64,000 nt of DNA from Cytophagaceae bacterium (GTDB lineage: Bacteria > Bacteroidota > Bacteroidia > Cytophagales > Flexibacteraceae): NCBI GenBank assembly GCA_027490155.1, contig JAIXYP010000005.1, positions 124,001 to 188,000 on the forward strand. The letters run 5' to 3'. Below are positions 47,605 to 55,909 of the stretch, in pieces (the first letter of the stretch is position 1; each line of letters begins with the position of its first letter). The position numbers and the translations under genes are program-made. The notes under the pieces are model-generated. The model was not told the origin of the DNA, made no database searches, and saw only the letters and a program-made list of their open reading frames with translations.

Positions 47605-48546
47605 ATGCCTGCACAACTTACCAATACCGTGATGATGGTCCGCCCGGTTGACTTTGGCTTCAATGCCGAGACAGCAACCGACAACGCCTTTCAGCGCCAA
47701 CCTAGTGCATCTGCCACTGAGCTCAAACGCCTGGTGCTCGACGAGTTTGACGAGGCAGTCGTTAAGCTTATCCAAGCAGGGATCAAGGTCCTTGTTCTTG
47801 AGAAGGGTGACGGATTGCCGACAATGCCTGATGCAGTGTTCCCCAATAACTGGTTTAGCACCCGGCATGATGGCACCGTTGTACTCTATCCGATGGCAGC
47901 ACCTAACCGCCGGATTGAGCGCCTTCAGTACCCCGCCGTCGAGCGACTGCTAATCAGCAAGGGTTTTGCACTCAGCTCAGTCCTGACCATTGGCCCGAGT
48001 GTAAGCGAAGAAAAGTTTTTCCTAGAAGGTACCGGGAGCCTTATTATCGATCACGAACTTAATCGGGTCTATGCAAGTATTTCGCCCCGGACCACATTGC
48101 ATCAGCTCAATAACTATGCAGCCAAGTTTGGCTACGAGCTAATTACATTTGATGCCTTCGATGCAGCTGGTCAGCCGTTCTATCATACCAATGTTGTCCT
48201 TAGTATCGGAGACCGTTTTGCGGTCGTCTGTGCTGATGCCATCCCAGAGTCTCAGCGTGCAAACGTCATCCAGAAGTTGGGTGAAGGTCGCGAGGTCATC
48301 ACATTAAGTTTCCAGCAGACGCAGGCATCGTTTTGTGCCAATGTTTTACAACTGGCCGGACCAGTAGGCGAGACTCCACGGATCGTTATGAGCCAAACAG
48401 CCTTTAACGGATTTTCGGGAGGGCACAAGGCTCGAATAGAGCAATATGGACAGCTCGTGCCTCTCAATATCCCGAATATTGAGCTTGTTGGTGGAGGAAG
48501 TGCCCGCTGTATGCTGGCCGAGATTTTCTTGCCGAACTACAACTAG
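47605..48546 (+). CDS. ctlX: citrulline utilization hydrolase CtlX (guanidine-modifying superfamily)
   Basis: Member of the amidinotransferase / arginine deiminase superfamily. In Francisella, CtlX degrades citrulline. The 313-residue product keeps superfamily catalytic residues: an acidic residue in PDAVFPNNWFSTRHDG near residue 85, H194 in FYHTNVVL and C302 in GGGSARCM close to the C-terminus. I place the start at ATG 47605 (MPAQLTNTVMMVRP), discarding a 65-residue upstream extension that overlaps coaE. Its stop codon overlaps the stop of the convergent DUF6438 gene at CTAG. Whether it acts on citrulline, arginine or another guanidino/ureido compound is not settled. Confidence 0.85.
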   Translation: MPAQLTNTVMMVRPVDFGFNAETATDNAFQRQPSASATELKRLVLDEFDEAVVKLIQAGIKVLVLEKGDGLPTMPDAVFPNNWFSTRHDGTVVLYPMAAPNRRIERLQYPAVERLLISKGFALSSVLTIGPSVSEEKFFLEGTGSLIIDHELNRVYASISPRTTLHQLNNYAAKFGYELITFDAFDAAGQPFYHTNVVLSIGDRFAVVCADAIPESQRANVIQKLGEGREVITLSFQQTQASFCANVLQLAGPVGETPRIVMSQTAFNGFSGGHKARIEQYGQLVPLNIPNIELVGGGSARCMLAEIFLPNYN

Positions 48547-49079
48547 TCTTTAATAGGGGCACCTGGCTGCTCAGTGATTATCATCATGACCGCATCCTTG
48601 ATGGTTTGTTGCACCTTCAGCAAATCGTCAGGGATGTTAGCAGCGGTCTCGATGGTTTTTACTTTGCCGCCACTTCGATAGGTGATCTTGGTAACGGGAA
48701 AGTCAGGCGCCAAACCATAGTCATCCTTAAGTGTCATCGGTTTGATCGCCTCAAGTGCCGTGACTAAGTCTTTGACGATGTCTGACTTAATGGTGTAGCG
48801 GAATCTTCCGATCACCTTGGTGTGGGCTATGCCTTCAAAGTCCATTTGCCCAGCCATATAAAATGAGGCCCTGTATGCTGGGCATTTGCCGAAACAAGGA
48901 CCTAGTTCCAGCTCCAGCACAGGAGCGACTTCCTTCTTGGGGGTAGCTATTTTATCAGGAGCCTTTTCTTGCTTTTTGCTTTTGCACGATGCTGTTATGG
49001 CTAATATGGATAACAGGCACAATATCCCGAACATTGGCACAATACGGATAAATAGTTGTCGTTGCGGTATCAGTAGCAT
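48543..49079 (-). CDS. DUF6438 domain lipoprotein
   Basis: A 178-residue predicted lipoprotein with a DUF6438 domain of unknown function. From ATG 49079 the signal (MFGILCLLSILAITASC core) ends at C about residue 29, followed by a Lys-rich linker. The family core is LGPCFGKCPAYRASFYM with two cysteines, then ANIPDDLLKV near the end. A GTG at 49088 or the ATG at 49034 are alternative starts. The stop overlaps the ctlX stop. It is divergent from the coiled-coil gene at 49168. Confidence 0.82.
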   Translation of the reverse strand: MLLIPQRQLFIRIVPMFGILCLLSILAITASCKSKKQEKAPDKIATPKKEVAPVLELELGPCFGKCPAYRASFYMAGQMDFEGIAHTKVIGRFRYTIKSDIVKDLVTALEAIKPMTLKDDYGLAPDFPVTKITYRSGGKVKTIETAANIPDDLLKVQQTIKDAVMMIITEQPGAPIKD

Positions 49080-49167
49080 ATATTGCACCTTGAAGGTTGT
49101 GTAAGGACGAATAATATTTCGTAATATTACTGTTTAGGTTCACTTCCACACTAAGTAAACTCGCAAG

Positions 49168-50094: not shown

Positions 50095-50126
50095 GCAAAG
50101 TGTTCAATATGTTTCTAATCAAAAGT

Positions 50127-50158
50127 GGGTCTGCTAGGTTGCTAGTAGGCCCGTTTTT
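50127..50158 (+). terminator. terminator of the coiled-coil gene
   Basis: GGGTCTGCTAG (50127-50137) pairs with CTAGTAGGCCC (50142-50152) over 11 pairs, two of them G-U, with a GTTG loop, followed by G and five T. It begins 33 bp after the stop codon. Confidence 0.85.
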
Positions 50159-50179: not shown

Positions 50180-50209
50180 TTGGCCAACTATGCAGTGTAT
50201 TTATATTTG
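50180..50209 (+). promoter_or_regulatory. Bacteroidota-type promoter for the 50336 gene cluster
   Basis: TTG at 50180-50182 and TATATTTG at 50202-50209 are separated by exactly 19 bp, a full match to the Bacteroidota TTG-N19-TAnnTTTG promoter. It lies just after a terminator, so it starts a new transcript near 50216 with a leader of about 120 nt. It is the best promoter match I found in the window. Confidence 0.65.
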
Positions 50210-50335
50210 CCTTAAGGTCAGGACCTAAATTTGTGATCCTACCCCAGAGCAATGCTATCCTTCTCATCATCAACCTAATGAGGGTATATGGTCTTGATCT
50301 AGTAAATCCTAAATCCAGCTTTGGTCAATCTACCT

Positions 50336-52273
50336 ATGACAAATAAACCAAAACCCATCAATGCTTGCCTTTTTAAGCTGGCAACTTTGGTTATTGCCCT
50401 AATGTGCTGTTGCCAAATAGCCATGGCACAGACTGGCAGTCCAACACCTAATACCATGCAGGATGCAACCCAGCAGGCAGTCAACAAGGTGCTGGACCAA
50501 AGCATTAAGGCAGACTATACCCGCGCTGGCTTTACCCTCATCTTGCTCACGGACCGAAGCCAGGCTTACTACCAGGATATTGAGGCAGCTTTTAAACAAA
50601 TCACGATCCCGGCCAAATATGATAATAATGTTATCCAGACTAACATCTTAGAGCGAACCCCAGGGTTTACCATTAGTCCCAATCCTGATGCTTTAGTTGG
50701 CATGCTGACCCAGTGGAAAGTCCCTCAACAAATTGTTGGGCACCTATTTGGCGAGAAGAACGGATTGTACGGGTATGATAAGCTGTACGAACGCGCACGA
50801 TACGGACTTGATGACAACGCTGTCATGCGGCTGAAACAAAGCGCTCAGGGTGTGGAAGGTAATGCAAAAACAGATGCCTGGATTTTGCCTCTGCTGGCAA
50901 ATACCTACATCGCAGTCGTGGATGTAAGGAACGTACGGAACTGGAATGCCTACTATGACGAAATCGACAATAGGCGTCGGGAGATCGCACCTCGACAAGG
51001 AACAGTCTTCGTGCCTGTAAAACGAGAGCGTAATGGTTTTGATGTTGATGCCAGTGGGGCGGTGATGCGACTTAACCTTCGGGACACAACGCTTTATGCC
51101 TTCTTTGATCGGTATTGGGCTGACGCAAATACCCCAGCAGCCAAGGCCAAGGGGCAAATCGCAGCTCGTAGTTTTATGAAGCTGCCAATGCAACAAGTGG
51201 TTTACTTCAATAGCAAGAGTTCAAATGGCTTTGTTAAGTCTTATGATGAGTTGCGATCCCCAGGCGATGGCGTACGGAATGTAGTGAATGACGTTATGTC
51301 AAATGCGGTGTCATCATTGACGGACCTTAGGGCCAAACAAGCAGTCTATGATATCAAACCGCTTAGGGCCAAGCTCGGTACCAAGGATGGGCTCCATACT
51401 GATGATCTCTATAGTGTATATGAAAACGAACAGCGTTCGGATGGTAGCACCGTACCTGCGTGGCGTGGCTACGTTAGGGCCAGTGTTGGTGTCGTGGACA
51501 ACCAAAGCAATGCAACTGGTAGCACAACACCGTCAGAGTTCTATCAGGTGGCTGGGAACCCCCTTGACATCGGCATGATCATGCAAGAGGAGCCAAGTGC
51601 GAAAGCGTCCGTGATGATCGGTGTGAGCAATAATGGGCCTACTAGCGGCCTTATCCGGTTCGAGTTACTGGCTCGTGGTTTTGGTAGCTCGAACAAGTTC
51701 TGGAACAATAGCCGACTGTACCTCGATGCTAGTATATCAGGTAAGAGCTTTGATACCACTTTTAAGGAGCTTGTCGCAAAAGAAAATACTAGTACTACTG
51801 GTCCGCTTAGTACCCTCAAGAAGAGTAGTACTGGTGTCACTATTTTGTCCTTCGGCATCGGCGGAGTCAAGTACTTTAACTTTTGGCGCAATGTGCAGGC
51901 TGGCCCCTACCTTGGCTTGCGGGGGGACTATGCCATGTTTAGCAATAATGACCTTCATGAAGCTGCTAAGGCAGACTTTGGTGAGATCTATGGGCTTAAG
52001 GGAATTACGATCGATGCAGGAGTGCGTGCAGGAGTGGTGCTCTACAGGGGCATTAGGCTAATGGGTAGTGTCGGCATTGCACCCTATTTCACGAACTCAG
52101 CTTTTTTCGGGACCAAAAAACCAAATGGACTAGGCACTACTGTTACGGGCCGTCGTGTTGATTTCGATAATATCGCTCAAATCACCGCCTATAACGACCT
52201 AGGAACCACTAATCCGTTTTACATCAGGTATGACTGGGCACGCTATGACCTTGGCATACATTTTGAATTTTGA
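50336..52273 (+). CDS. exported protein with barrel-like C-terminus, unknown function
   Basis: A 645-residue protein without a name I can give. The ATG at 50336 opens a signal peptide (LVIALMCCCQIAMAQ, ending near residue 32); a TTG at 50321 is less likely. Residues about 45-330 are mixed alpha/beta. A middle part (RAKLGTKDGLHTDDLYSVYE, WRGYVRASVG, STTPSEFYQVAGNPLDIGM) recalls a recurrent family of Bacteroidota exported proteins. The C-terminal 200 residues have amphipathic strands and a final phenylalanine (DLGIHFEF), typical of outer-membrane barrels. First gene of a cluster of four, with a promoter at 50180. Role unknown; outer-membrane location is inferred. Confidence 0.78.
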   Translation: MTNKPKPINACLFKLATLVIALMCCCQIAMAQTGSPTPNTMQDATQQAVNKVLDQSIKADYTRAGFTLILLTDRSQAYYQDIEAAFKQITIPAKYDNNVIQTNILERTPGFTISPNPDALVGMLTQWKVPQQIVGHLFGEKNGLYGYDKLYERARYGLDDNAVMRLKQSAQGVEGNAKTDAWILPLLANTYIAVVDVRNVRNWNAYYDEIDNRRREIAPRQGTVFVPVKRERNGFDVDASGAVMRLNLRDTTLYAFFDRYWADANTPAAKAKGQIAARSFMKLPMQQVVYFNSKSSNGFVKSYDELRSPGDGVRNVVNDVMSNAVSSLTDLRAKQAVYDIKPLRAKLGTKDGLHTDDLYSVYENEQRSDGSTVPAWRGYVRASVGVVDNQSNATGSTTPSEFYQVAGNPLDIGMIMQEEPSAKASVMIGVSNNGPTSGLIRFELLARGFGSSNKFWNNSRLYLDASISGKSFDTTFKELVAKENTSTTGPLSTLKKSSTGVTILSFGIGGVKYFNFWRNVQAGPYLGLRGDYAMFSNNDLHEAAKADFGEIYGLKGITIDAGVRAGVVLYRGIRLMGSVGIAPYFTNSAFFGTKKPNGLGTTVTGRRVDFDNIAQITAYNDLGTTNPFYIRYDWARYDLGIHFEF

Positions 52274-52303
52274 GCCAACATTACATCCGACTCAGTTGTG
52301 AAT

Positions 52304-52342
52304 AAGTTGTTAATAACCTCATTAGCAGTTAATTAACAACTT
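52304..52342. repeat. A/T-rich inverted repeat between 50336 and 52475 genes
   Basis: AAGTTGTTAAT (52304-52314) is repeated inverted as ATTAACAACTT (52332-52342) with a 17-base spacer. The stem is too A/T-rich and lacks a T-run for a strong terminator; a regulator-binding site or weak attenuator is possible. Confidence 0.5.
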
Positions 52343-52474
52343 GACATTAATTCATTGCCTTTCTTTACATCAGGATCAGATCCTTAAAACGACAGGCCCT
52401 GTAATTGCCCAAATTACCCATTAGCTCCTATCCTACACACTGCGTAATCTACCTCAAAAAAAACTTCAACACCA

Positions 52475-53017
52475 ATGAAAAGCAACCTCAAACCCATCTT
52501 GTTTGCTGCCCTCCTGGTCGCAAGCAGTTTTGCCTACCTCTCATGCCGTCGTCCGCCGGAGAGTACTTCACTCAATTATGAGGTAAAGGCCATGGAACAA
52601 GGCAAACAAGGGACCATTCTGTTCAAAGTTTTTAGCTACGGTAACACGACGCGCCAAGGCATCGACCGGGCTAAAATGGACGCCATGCACGCTGTATTGT
52701 TCAAAGGCATACCGGGCAGCAACTCAACCCGCCCTTTGGTGGACCTGAGTATGCTGGAGGCCAACAAAAAGTACTTTGTTGATTTCTTTGGAGGTGCAAC
52801 AGAGATCAACCAGTACTCCCTTGGCTACATCAAGATCAAGGAGGGTAGCCACGAGGGTCCTTACCGCCTCTATGTTTCCGAAAGTGGAGACGGCAGTGTG
52901 GAAGATCGCCTCAAAGTTAACAACATGGTCAAGGTAGGCATTCCTGTAACAGTGAACCTAGACCAGCTGCGTCGTCGCCTCGAAGACGATGGCATCATCC
53001 GCAAGTTTGGCCTATAG
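52475..53017 (+). CDS. predicted lipoprotein of unknown function
   Basis: A 180-residue lipoprotein that I do not recognise. The signal MKSNLKPILFAALLVASSFA ends in the lipobox YLSC. The mature part is basic, mainly alpha/beta (TILFKVFSYGNTTRQGIDRA, YFVDFFGG) and ends in a charged helix. Second gene of the cluster, 201 bp after the barrel-like protein and 97 bp before the DUF6175-like gene. Probably inserted in the inner leaflet of the outer membrane or surface-exposed. Confidence 0.78.
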   Translation: MKSNLKPILFAALLVASSFAYLSCRRPPESTSLNYEVKAMEQGKQGTILFKVFSYGNTTRQGIDRAKMDAMHAVLFKGIPGSNSTRPLVDLSMLEANKKYFVDFFGGATEINQYSLGYIKIKEGSHEGPYRLYVSESGDGSVEDRLKVNNMVKVGIPVTVNLDQLRRRLEDDGIIRKFGL

Positions 53018-53114
53018 GCTATAGGACCTAGCCCTGTCCACCCCTATTTACTTTAAATCTCAGATGCCCAATCATAGTGGCATTCAACCTACATCACCCC
53101 CACCCGAACTAGCC

Positions 53115-54080
53115 ATGAAACGACTGTTCAAACCCCTAGTTATAGCTGCCACTGTTTGTGTTTTGAGCATTGGCCAACTGATAGCTCAGCAGCAACCCAC
53201 CATAATGGTCGTCCCGAGTGACGTCTGGTGCAACAAAAACGGCTTCATGACCACCTATTCTGACCAAGGAAGAATGGTCAAGGTGCCTGACTACAACAAA
53301 GCCCTGCAAGAAAACGACGATCTCGAGTTCGTGATCGGAAAAATCGGTCAGATGTTTGCCGACCGTGGTTTCCCGCTCCAGAACCTGAAGGAGACGATGG
53401 ACAAAATCGGCCGTGACAATGCCAACCGTGCAGCGCTGACCGGTAGCAAAGCGCAGATTAAGGAGTCACCTATGGACCTGCTGAACCGGACCGCAAAGGC
53501 AGACATCATACTCAAAACCGACTGGACGGTGATCGAAAAGGGTGGAGGACGCCGTACCGTACGGTTCACGATCACCCCAATTGATCCCTACACAGGATCT
53601 GAGGCGGGTGGAGGTGCCAGCGGCGAAAGTGTCAATCCATCTACCGAGCAAAGCGTAAGTAAACTCATAGAGGAGGCAGTTTTGGCTAACATTACCAACC
53701 TCCAAACCCGCATGGAGGATTACTTTAAGGACCTGAGGACCAATGGCCGCAAGGTCAGCATCAAGATCATGGTTGCCCAGGCTGCCAAGTTTAACCTCGA
53801 GGACGAGTGCGACGGTACCGAATATACCCAATGGCTGGATGATTGGATGACCGCTAACGCTGTCAATGGTAAGTACATTCAAGAAGATGCCACCGAGAAC
53901 GCTGTTAGCTATAACTCAGTTCGCATTCCGCTCAAGACCGCAGCAGGCCGTGACTTTAACGCCCAAATGTTTGGACAAAAGCTTCAGAAGGATCTACAGG
54001 CCAAATGTGGACTCAAAGGTAAAGTCAAACTCATCAGGAAAGGTGTTGCTGAAAGTTGGTTGGTACTCGGTGGCAAATAG
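53115..54080 (+). CDS. exported DUF6175-like protein
   Basis: A 321-residue exported protein. ATG 53115 starts a signal peptide (LVIAATVCVLSIGQLIAQ, ending near residue 25); the 17 residues from an upstream start at 53064 do not fit. The mature N-terminus PTIMVVPSDVWCNKNG is, as I recall it, characteristic of DUF6175 proteins of Bacteroidota. The rest has a long helix region (FVIGKIGQMFADRGFPLQNL), a beta segment with DIILKTDWTV, and YTQWLDDWMTANAVNG. The pattern of a ~140-residue alpha/beta unit reminds of lipoprotein-associated, CsgG-like periplasmic folds, but that is only an impression. Third gene of the cluster. Confidence 0.72.
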   Translation: MKRLFKPLVIAATVCVLSIGQLIAQQQPTIMVVPSDVWCNKNGFMTTYSDQGRMVKVPDYNKALQENDDLEFVIGKIGQMFADRGFPLQNLKETMDKIGRDNANRAALTGSKAQIKESPMDLLNRTAKADIILKTDWTVIEKGGGRRTVRFTITPIDPYTGSEAGGGASGESVNPSTEQSVSKLIEEAVLANITNLQTRMEDYFKDLRTNGRKVSIKIMVAQAAKFNLEDECDGTEYTQWLDDWMTANAVNGKYIQEDATENAVSYNSVRIPLKTAAGRDFNAQMFGQKLQKDLQAKCGLKGKVKLIRKGVAESWLVLGGK

Positions 54081-54173
54081 TCTGATCACCCTTGCTTTAC
54101 CCTAGGCATCACCCTGACCACCATCTTACTCATCTCCAGCCACTACTTTCTACCTAACCATCACCTTTCGATC

Positions 54174-55175
54174 ATGAAAACGATGTCCACCATATCCCGC
54201 CTAGCCCAAGCAACACGTCGTTGTTTGCAAATAGGCTCTCTAGGCCTGGTCCTAGTTTTTAGCCTAGGCGCCACAGCGACCATGGCCCAGTCAGAGGCAG
54301 GTAACCTGCCACTTTACCCTGTTGTTCCAGACAATGTCAAAGTGCCCGAAGGTGTCAAAGAGGTGCTCCAAGCACGCCTTGACCAAGCTGTCACTACTAA
54401 TGGTATGGGCGGCATGGCTAGCCTCACCAATCGGTTTGTGCTTGTACCGAAGATTATTGTCTTGCAGCGCAACATCACCCAAACTGCCCCAGCCATGACC
54501 CAAGTAAGCCTAGAGGCAGTCCTGCAGGTGGCTGATATGGGTAGTAAGCGCAGTATGGCATCCACAACAATTGCCCTCAATGGCGTTGGGGCGACTGAAG
54601 AAAAGGCCTATACCATGGCTTTCCAGAATATGGACGTCAATAGTGGTCCGCTAGCAGATTTCATGAAAACCTCCCGCGAAAAGATCCTGAATTTCTACCT
54701 CAATAACTGCGACAGGATCATCGCTCAGGCCAAAACCAGCATAGCCCGTAACGAGCCAGAAGAGGCCTTAGAGCAATTACTTTCGGTTCCGTTTGAGGCT
54801 ACAACTTGTTTCAACAAAGCCAATGCACTGGTGCCGAAGGCTTTTCGAGCCTACCAGCTAAAGCAATGTGACGTCTTTATGCAAAAGGCCCAAGCAGCCT
54901 TGGCATCAGGTAATGAGGAAGAAGCAGCCCAAGCCTTGGCTCAGGTACCTAGTTTTTCGGTCTGTGGCAAAAAAGCAGACGCCATCATCGCCAAACTCAA
55001 CAAACAATGGCTGATGAAGTACCAAAACGAGTTCAAGATCAGGAAAATGAAAATCGATGCCCAGAAGTGGGTCGCTGCCTCTTTGCTTGAGTCTGCTAGG
55101 CGTTTCTACCCGACTTACATCCTGCCTGGGATGGTGCAGCCCTACCAACAGCAAGACCTAGGATTTTTGAGGTAG
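54174..55175 (+). CDS. exported protein of unknown function, last of cluster
   Basis: A 333-residue exported protein; the signal peptide ends after ATATMA near residue 38, and a second ATG at codon 4 is an alternative start. The first half has a LQARLDQAVTTNGMGGMASL helix followed by strands (RFVLVPKIIVLQRNITQ, VSLEAVLQVADMGSK). The second half is helical with repeated alanine-rich units (NCDRIIAQAKTSIARNEPEE, QCDVFMQKAQAALASGNEEE), resembling TPR-like repeats with regularly placed cysteines. Similar proteins occur in Bacteroidales near DUF6175 genes as far as I recall. Function unknown. A strong terminator follows at 55204. Confidence 0.75.
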   Translation: MKTMSTISRLAQATRRCLQIGSLGLVLVFSLGATATMAQSEAGNLPLYPVVPDNVKVPEGVKEVLQARLDQAVTTNGMGGMASLTNRFVLVPKIIVLQRNITQTAPAMTQVSLEAVLQVADMGSKRSMASTTIALNGVGATEEKAYTMAFQNMDVNSGPLADFMKTSREKILNFYLNNCDRIIAQAKTSIARNEPEEALEQLLSVPFEATTCFNKANALVPKAFRAYQLKQCDVFMQKAQAALASGNEEEAAQALAQVPSFSVCGKKADAIIAKLNKQWLMKYQNEFKIRKMKIDAQKWVAASLLESARRFYPTYILPGMVQPYQQQDLGFLR

Positions 55176-55203
55176 ATCGCGGACTTTTACAGGATTAGAT
55201 TGA

Positions 55204-55236
55204 AACCACTGGTACTTAGGTGCCAGTGGTTTTTTG
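55204..55236 (+). terminator. terminator of the 50336-55175 cluster
   Basis: AAACCACTGGTAC (55204-55216) pairs with GTGCCAGTGGTTT (55221-55233), 13 pairs with one G-U, around a TTAG loop, and ends in six T (55231-55236). It closes the rightward cluster and faces a leftward gene whose stop is at 55264. Confidence 0.88.
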
Positions 55237-55263: not shown

Positions 55264-55812
55264 CTAGCCCTCCATCATTTTCCTTACCTCAGAGCGCAAA
55301 TGGGCTAGGGCTGGTGCAGTTGGGTCCCCGCTGCCGCTATTGATGAGGTTTTCGAAGGCACGTGAGGCTAGCTGGATTGATGGCTGGTCACCATCTAGGG
55401 TCTCAGCTGCTTGGTTTATGAGGGACAATACGTTCTGCATGGCGCCTTTGATGTGCTCATAACTTTGGTCTGATATGTAGATCTGGGCCGACACGTTGTG
55501 CATAAACTCCTGATTCAGGACCTGATTGAGGTGTTGCTGCCAAAGTGCGACGTTGGCCTCTGGCGCATTCTCCCGGACGAATAAGTTCTGTGGGGCAATT
55601 CGCTCCAGAAACAAGACCCAACGTTCGTAGGCTTGCAGGCGTAGTGTCAAGGTTTGGTTGTCTGCTTTGGTCCGTAGGTCCAGCAAGGATTTCTCGATCT
55701 CGCGTGTGCTGTAGCTCCTTATCGTGAGGTACATGCCATAGACCGCTAGGCTTGCAGGGATCACAATCTTGAAAAAATCGGCCAATAGGCTCAGAATTGA
55801 CTCGGTTATCAT
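55264..55812 (-). CDS. small membrane-anchored protein, DUF7935-like
   Basis: A 182-residue protein with one N-terminal membrane helix (LADFFKIVIPASLAVYGMYL, residues about 7-26) and a cytoplasmic helical remainder (LLDLRTKADNQTLTLRLQAY, ISDQSYEHIKGAMQNVLSLI). Start chosen at ATG 55812; a frame extends to 55878 but the extra residues are not hydrophobic and delay the membrane helix. The form resembles the Bacteroidota family DUF7935, whose function is unknown, but I hold this lightly. Lies between hemW (same strand, upstream) and a convergent cluster. Confidence 0.65.
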   Translation of the reverse strand: MITESILSLLADFFKIVIPASLAVYGMYLTIRSYSTREIEKSLLDLRTKADNQTLTLRLQAYERWVLFLERIAPQNLFVRENAPEANVALWQQHLNQVLNQEFMHNVSAQIYISDQSYEHIKGAMQNVLSLINQAAETLDGDQPSIQLASRAFENLINSGSGDPTAPALAHLRSEVRKMMEG

Positions 55813-55909
55813 AAGGCGAATGTAGGGGTTTTGGCCATCATGGCCTAGTTTGTTAGTGATTAGGGTCTTGCACCCCAATCAAAATCAAAACTAAATTCGG
55901 GGGTGGGGA

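Follow-up and report, generated by a model that had tools for sequence, protein, structure and literature searches.

The 64-kb window (the whole stretch of DNA analysed here) contains, in a row on the forward strand, four genes for exported proteins to which no function has been attached. Do they constitute a single system and, if so, with which kind of envelope machinery should it be compared?

The four genes and the signals that bound them

Genes A (50336..52273, + strand), which encodes 645 amino acids, B (52475..53017, +), C (53115..54080, +) and D (54174..55175, +) all possess intact open reading frames with export signals, in agreement with the earlier note, which had described four exported proteins in a row. 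A, C and D begin with plain signal peptides. The small product of B, announced as a lipoprotein, is indeed exported; its lipobox (YLSC) is non-canonical and weak, so it should be regarded as a possible lipoprotein only. Comparison with the corresponding locus of a sister species (L056) indicates purifying selection on all four genes, with dN/dS of 0.10 for A, 0.03 for B, 0.02 for C and 0.03 for D.

Upstream of A lies a Bacteroidota-type promoter, TTG-N19-TATATTTG (50180..50209, +), with TTG at 50180-50182, TATATTTG at 50202-50209 and a spacing of exactly 19 nt. The exact motif occurs once in the 64-kb window versus 0 occurrences in 30 Markov (dinucleotide) resamples; the looser pattern TTG-N17-21-TAnnTTTG is found there at chance level (9 observed, 4.5 expected, maximum 9). 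The sister species has the block AAAGTTGGCCAACTATGCAGTGTATTTATATTTGCC without a single change, though the whole stretch is only 89% identical and the remainder of the promoter-side gap carries substitutions and indels, and this conserved footprint places the promoter above a mere motif match, so that the claim of a full Bacteroidota promoter holds. At 50180-50187 the promoter overlaps a palindrome, TTGGCCAA, also invariant in L056, within which the -33 element is situated and which could be an operator.

The strong hairpin described as closing the cluster (55202..55233, +; -22.6 kcal/mol, z -5.2, followed by T6) is corroborated by the sister species, in which every stem substitution preserves pairing. 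The preceding coiled-coil gene ends in an intrinsic terminator (50122..50157, +; -20.4 kcal/mol, z -6.6, followed by a U-run), and with the two terminators the cluster, which thus does appear to have a promoter and terminator of its own, is insulated at both ends. TAnnTTTG does not occur within the A-B, B-C or C-D gaps, and, with an A-B gap of 201 nt, a single transcript for A-D is no more than plausible. This gap also carries an AT-rich inverted repeat (52303..52343, +; z -2.5), conserved in L056, and the short palindromes GGATCAGATCC and ACAGGCCCTGT at about 52375-52420. The cluster is flanked upstream by a gene for a DUF6438 protein (48543-49088, -) and downstream by one for a DUF7935 protein (55264-55878, -), the latter adjoining it in the sister species too.

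Domain content of the four products

C was previously described as DUF6175-like, and it is a true member of this family (PF19672; E 9.4e-85, 284.7 bits against a cut-off of 23), with a full-length match (2-293 of 293 model positions) above the gathering score. We found no mention of DUF6175 in the openly accessible papers searched. The AlphaFold2 model of C (pLDDT 88) comprises an N-terminal CsgG/PelC-type domain (residues 25-206), which the earlier note had missed, and a second alpha/beta domain (211-321). The N-terminal domain aligns with CsgG (Z 10.3, 137 residues, rmsd 4.3), PelC (Z 9.1, 115 residues, rmsd 2.9), FlgT (Z 8.6, 133 residues, rmsd 3.5) and TolB (Z 7.5), which places it, as modelled, in the CsgG-fold superfamily with its CsgG/TolB-N-type alpha/beta domain. 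Cys39 is invariant in 38 sequences. None of the four proteins has a CsgG match in Pfam, there is no PF03783 match in the genome from which the window comes, and the combination of such a match with curli partner genes that would mark C as a CsgG/curli protein was not found. Domains of the CsgG fold serve many functions, as in PelC, LpoB, TolB and LptE, and the fold therefore does not fix the role, just as likeness in fold is not proof of function.

The AlphaFold2 model of A (pLDDT 74) has FlgT (3w1e) as its top Foldseek match (E 6.6e-5, prob 1.00); a further match is to the LPHT ring of the flagellum (8z5n). According to the model comparison, residues from about 60 to 420 resemble the middle and C-terminal domains of FlgT: they align with residues 118-377 of the FlgT-ring chain with Z 8.2, a low global TM (0.16/0.23) and an rmsd of 9.6, the last of which means that the two proteins have the domain order in common and not a rigid arrangement. 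With the reservation of the low global TM, the model displays the CsgG-type middle domain followed by a C-terminal domain that characterizes the FlgT family; this is a fold match, obtained from one predicted model of moderate confidence. By sequence, A matches no Pfam family and is not assigned to FlgT by either Pfam model: FlgT_C yields only E 0.093, in one homologue, and FlgT_M yields matches in 0 of 59 genomes, a weak absence since no control genome gave a match either.

The portrayal of A as a barrel-like exported protein is correct as to export, and as to the barrel only for the last 225 residues or so. Residues 421-645 (51596..52270, +) are modelled as a closed 8-stranded barrel of the OmpA/OmpW type (Z 16.2 to 3dzm, 14.9 to OmpA 1qjp), and A does end in the Phe that had been pointed out. 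A barrel-length extension (170-227 aa) is present in the A protein of the window, in its sister and in 8 of the 49 other aligned homologues, most of which end at a GML(I/L)RQxK motif immediately before the barrel position. The barrel is thus an optional part of A, and this point is an addition to what had been described, as are the likeness of A to FlgT and the domain of CsgG type in C. Two A paralogues occur near the cluster in four loci (L059, L068, L070 and L131), and in several of these only one of the pair has the barrel-length extension.

In L046 and L048, A's place is taken by a CsgG/LpoB-family protein, which in L048 (PF13036 2.9e-9, PF03783 1.9e-8) also matches the A profile (E 1e-5). 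It is tempting to consider the cluster as a secretion or export apparatus of the CsgG type, in which C (and A) would provide the outer-membrane channel through which some protein or polysaccharide passes, in the manner of CsgG for curli and PelBC for Pel. The replacement of A and the order of C's matches, with CsgG the best by Z and PelC close behind, agree with this possibility, which we nevertheless consider unlikely, since a closed 8-stranded barrel that is missing from most homologues does not suit a channel, no recurrent substrate gene adjoins the cluster, and genomes that lack DUF6175 can have bona fide matches to CsgG (E <= 1e-60). LpoB is a lipoprotein of the CsgG fold, and because the protein of L048 scores slightly better as LpoB than as CsgG, a regulator of peptidoglycan synthesis or a factor of outer-membrane/wall attachment can also be envisaged. 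This alternative is the least probable that we weighed: a set of four to seven proteins that includes LPP20, SH3-like and TPR modules goes beyond a single-domain activator, and the neighbourhoods examined contain no gene for a penicillin-binding protein.

B belongs to no known family, and the consensus sequences of A and B have no useful Pfam match. In particular, neither the members of B nor their consensus match LPP20 (PF02169), to which hhalign provides a weak link (prob 24-33%). A match of B to HTH_CodY (0.0026, below the cut-off) was dismissed as spurious, since B is exported. In other genomes B is often duplicated and the second copy is frequently a lipoprotein: among tandem pairs, lipoprotein-like second copies were seen in 23 of 42 loci and lipoprotein-like first copies in 0 of 42. 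D, accurately characterized before as a cysteine-bearing alpha-helical exported protein, consists of an N-terminal domain common to the C-terminus of LPP20-family proteins (prob 78% in profile comparison) and two TPR-like repeats, each with a cysteine pair (179/212, conserved in 34 of 49 sequences, and 232/264, in 45 of 49). Sequence-profile searches of the PDB with all four families returned nothing significant, and hhalign comparisons of C with D, A and a CsgG-like set were too weak for standalone use.

Conservation of the set across Bacteroidota

A DUF6175 alignment was scanned against 84,980 species genomes and 541 relatives were confirmed, from which the best 80 were kept. Among the 56 of these loci with enough flank, a sample that is not unbiased because the loci were picked by similarity to C, all 56 have A in the same orientation, 54 have D no more than 300 nt after C, and in 48 B is the gene directly before C. 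The orders are mainly ABBCD, ABCD and BBCDA, with C-D gaps typically of 1-40 nt. The conserved neighbourhood, previously indicated for Bacteroidales, is therefore a synteny of A-D across Bacteroidota. The gene set is a minority trait, DUF6175 being present in 19 of 395 Bacteroidota genomes.

A strong DUF6175 match was obtained in 9 of 59 related genomes. Of these nine, 8 contain D and 7 contain A, whereas neither gene is found in any of the 50 others; as some of the 59 genomes are congeneric, these counts are not independent. Linkage alone cannot account for the co-occurrence, because two genomes (G029 and G044) have the complete set although A, D and B-C are spread over three different contigs. 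B is fused to C in L020 and L050-L053, and more weakly in L054 and L055, and beside this fusion the N-terminal domain of D is joined to an LPP20 protein in L050-L055 (E 3e-5 to 1e-2); L055 retains the order A (with barrel), B-C, LPP20-D. In Bacteroidales loci a 430-aa LPP20-like protein, and in several of them also a 190-aa LPP20-like lipoprotein, is encoded 3' of D, both with Pfam scores below the cut-off. No cargo or substrate gene recurs beside the cluster in the neighbourhoods examined.

The synteny, the co-occurrence even of unlinked genes and the fusion of two pairs in deep lineages lend good support to the proposal of one undescribed system, and we have little doubt that A-D act together as a unit. 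Structure and sequence comparison did not distribute the proteins among unrelated systems; it put A and C, and D by its N-terminal domain, among related kinds of known domain. Together with the domain types held in common with the curli exporter and the Vibrio flagellar rings, the co-occurrence suggests that the four genes probably encode an undescribed outer-membrane-associated complex, in bacteria without any sign of a flagellum.

Two observations concern separate loci. The genome under study possesses elsewhere (G000:C3, about 95.3-99.6 kb; L159 3355-7560) a gene set that includes an LPP20-family protein of 445 aa (PF02169, 26.0 bits) and is conserved in L160, L166 and L167; its domain types are similar, and it is unlinked to the A-D cluster. 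In L161, L162 and L163, which lack DUF6175, a CsgG-family gene has an LPP20 gene directly after it, an arrangement that may represent a complex of this kind in simpler form.

A putative scaffold and its known counterparts

Our preferred reading, offered tentatively and at somewhat under even chances, is that the products of A-D form a flagellum-independent, outer-membrane-anchored periplasmic scaffold, probably ring-shaped, which works like the H-ring. It would be built from the domain types of the Vibrio flagellar H-ring and of other CsgG-fold rings, and would take shape on the periplasmic side of the outer membrane. C may oligomerise via its CsgG-type domain, with B as its anchor or cap; the FlgT-like part of A would link to the ring, while in this lineage the fused barrel would tie A into the outer membrane. 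D could serve as a disulphide-stapled TPR adaptor, and the whole might support or guide another envelope-spanning or secreted structure. FlgH, the L-ring protein, is absent from all 59 genomes (that of the window and 58 relatives), the Escherichia coli, Caulobacter and Thermotoga controls giving matches; the likeness to the H-ring, if functional, would therefore serve something other than a flagellum.

The CsgG-type domains might instead be binding modules only, within some other envelope complex such as a type IX secretion/gliding accessory or a stress or cell-division factor. SprA accompanies DUF6175 in every positive genome checked; however, it is present in 57 of the 59 genomes, which renders the association uninformative, and we regard this alternative as improbable, about on a par with the export channel.

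The scaffold reading has a bolder extension, which we find doubtful: that the cluster represents a flagellum-independent outer-membrane ring machine, present in a minority of Bacteroidota genomes and of common ancestry with the flagellar H-ring (FlgO/P/T). If this were true, the flagellum would have acquired its H-ring from an older outer-membrane scaffold of general use. DUF6175 and its partners, unnamed so far, are found together in lineages that range from Flavobacteriales to Bacteroidales, those of the gut included. Once placed with outer-membrane assemblies of the CsgG/FlgT type, the four hypothetical proteins become a single complex that can be tested. This complex may constitute a new scaffold of the outer membrane, in a phylum where most other envelope machines are type IX secretion or SUS systems, and it offers a non-flagellar comparison for the H-ring.

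Among known systems, the Neisseria lipoprotein GNA1162 (4hrv) gives the top Foldseek E-value for C (5.7e-4), but it is a single small domain, without the C-terminal domain of DUF6175 and without such a four-gene arrangement. The N-terminal domain of C also aligns with PelC, the dodecamer of the PelBC exopolysaccharide export ring (Z 9.1, rmsd 2.9), whereas the neighbourhoods examined contain no polysaccharide genes and the cluster has extra domains and partners. To the CsgG curli channel it is linked by the CsgG-type fold of C (Z 10.3) and by the replacement of A in L046 and L048; in contrast, PF03783 finds no match in its own genome, no curli-like substrate gene was noticed, and with only 137 CsgG residues aligned to C a CsgG-like membrane hairpin is not seen.

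The remaining comparison is with the H-ring. FlgP belongs to the LPP20 family and FlgO has a CsgG-type domain. The cluster differs in gene order and partners and by the presence of DUF6175, of the TPR protein D and, in some homologues, of an OmpA-type barrel; its genomes lack FlgH, the L-ring marker of a flagellum, and have no Pfam FlgT_M match (nor did any control). The H-ring of Vibrio, composed of FlgO, FlgP and FlgT (PMC6375700, PMC7990780), encircles the L-ring and aids the flagellum through the outer membrane, FlgO and FlgP being lipoproteins and FlgT periplasmic (PMC7990780). Like it, the cluster putatively forms an outer-membrane scaffold of several proteins: A resembles FlgT in its middle and C-terminal domains, the B-C fusion recalls the N-terminal and middle domains of FlgT, the LPP20-family neighbours recall FlgP and the CsgG-type domains recall FlgO. 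In composition, then, the exported CsgG-type, FlgT-like, LPP20-related and TPR parts, with their lipid or barrel anchors, resemble those of the H-ring.
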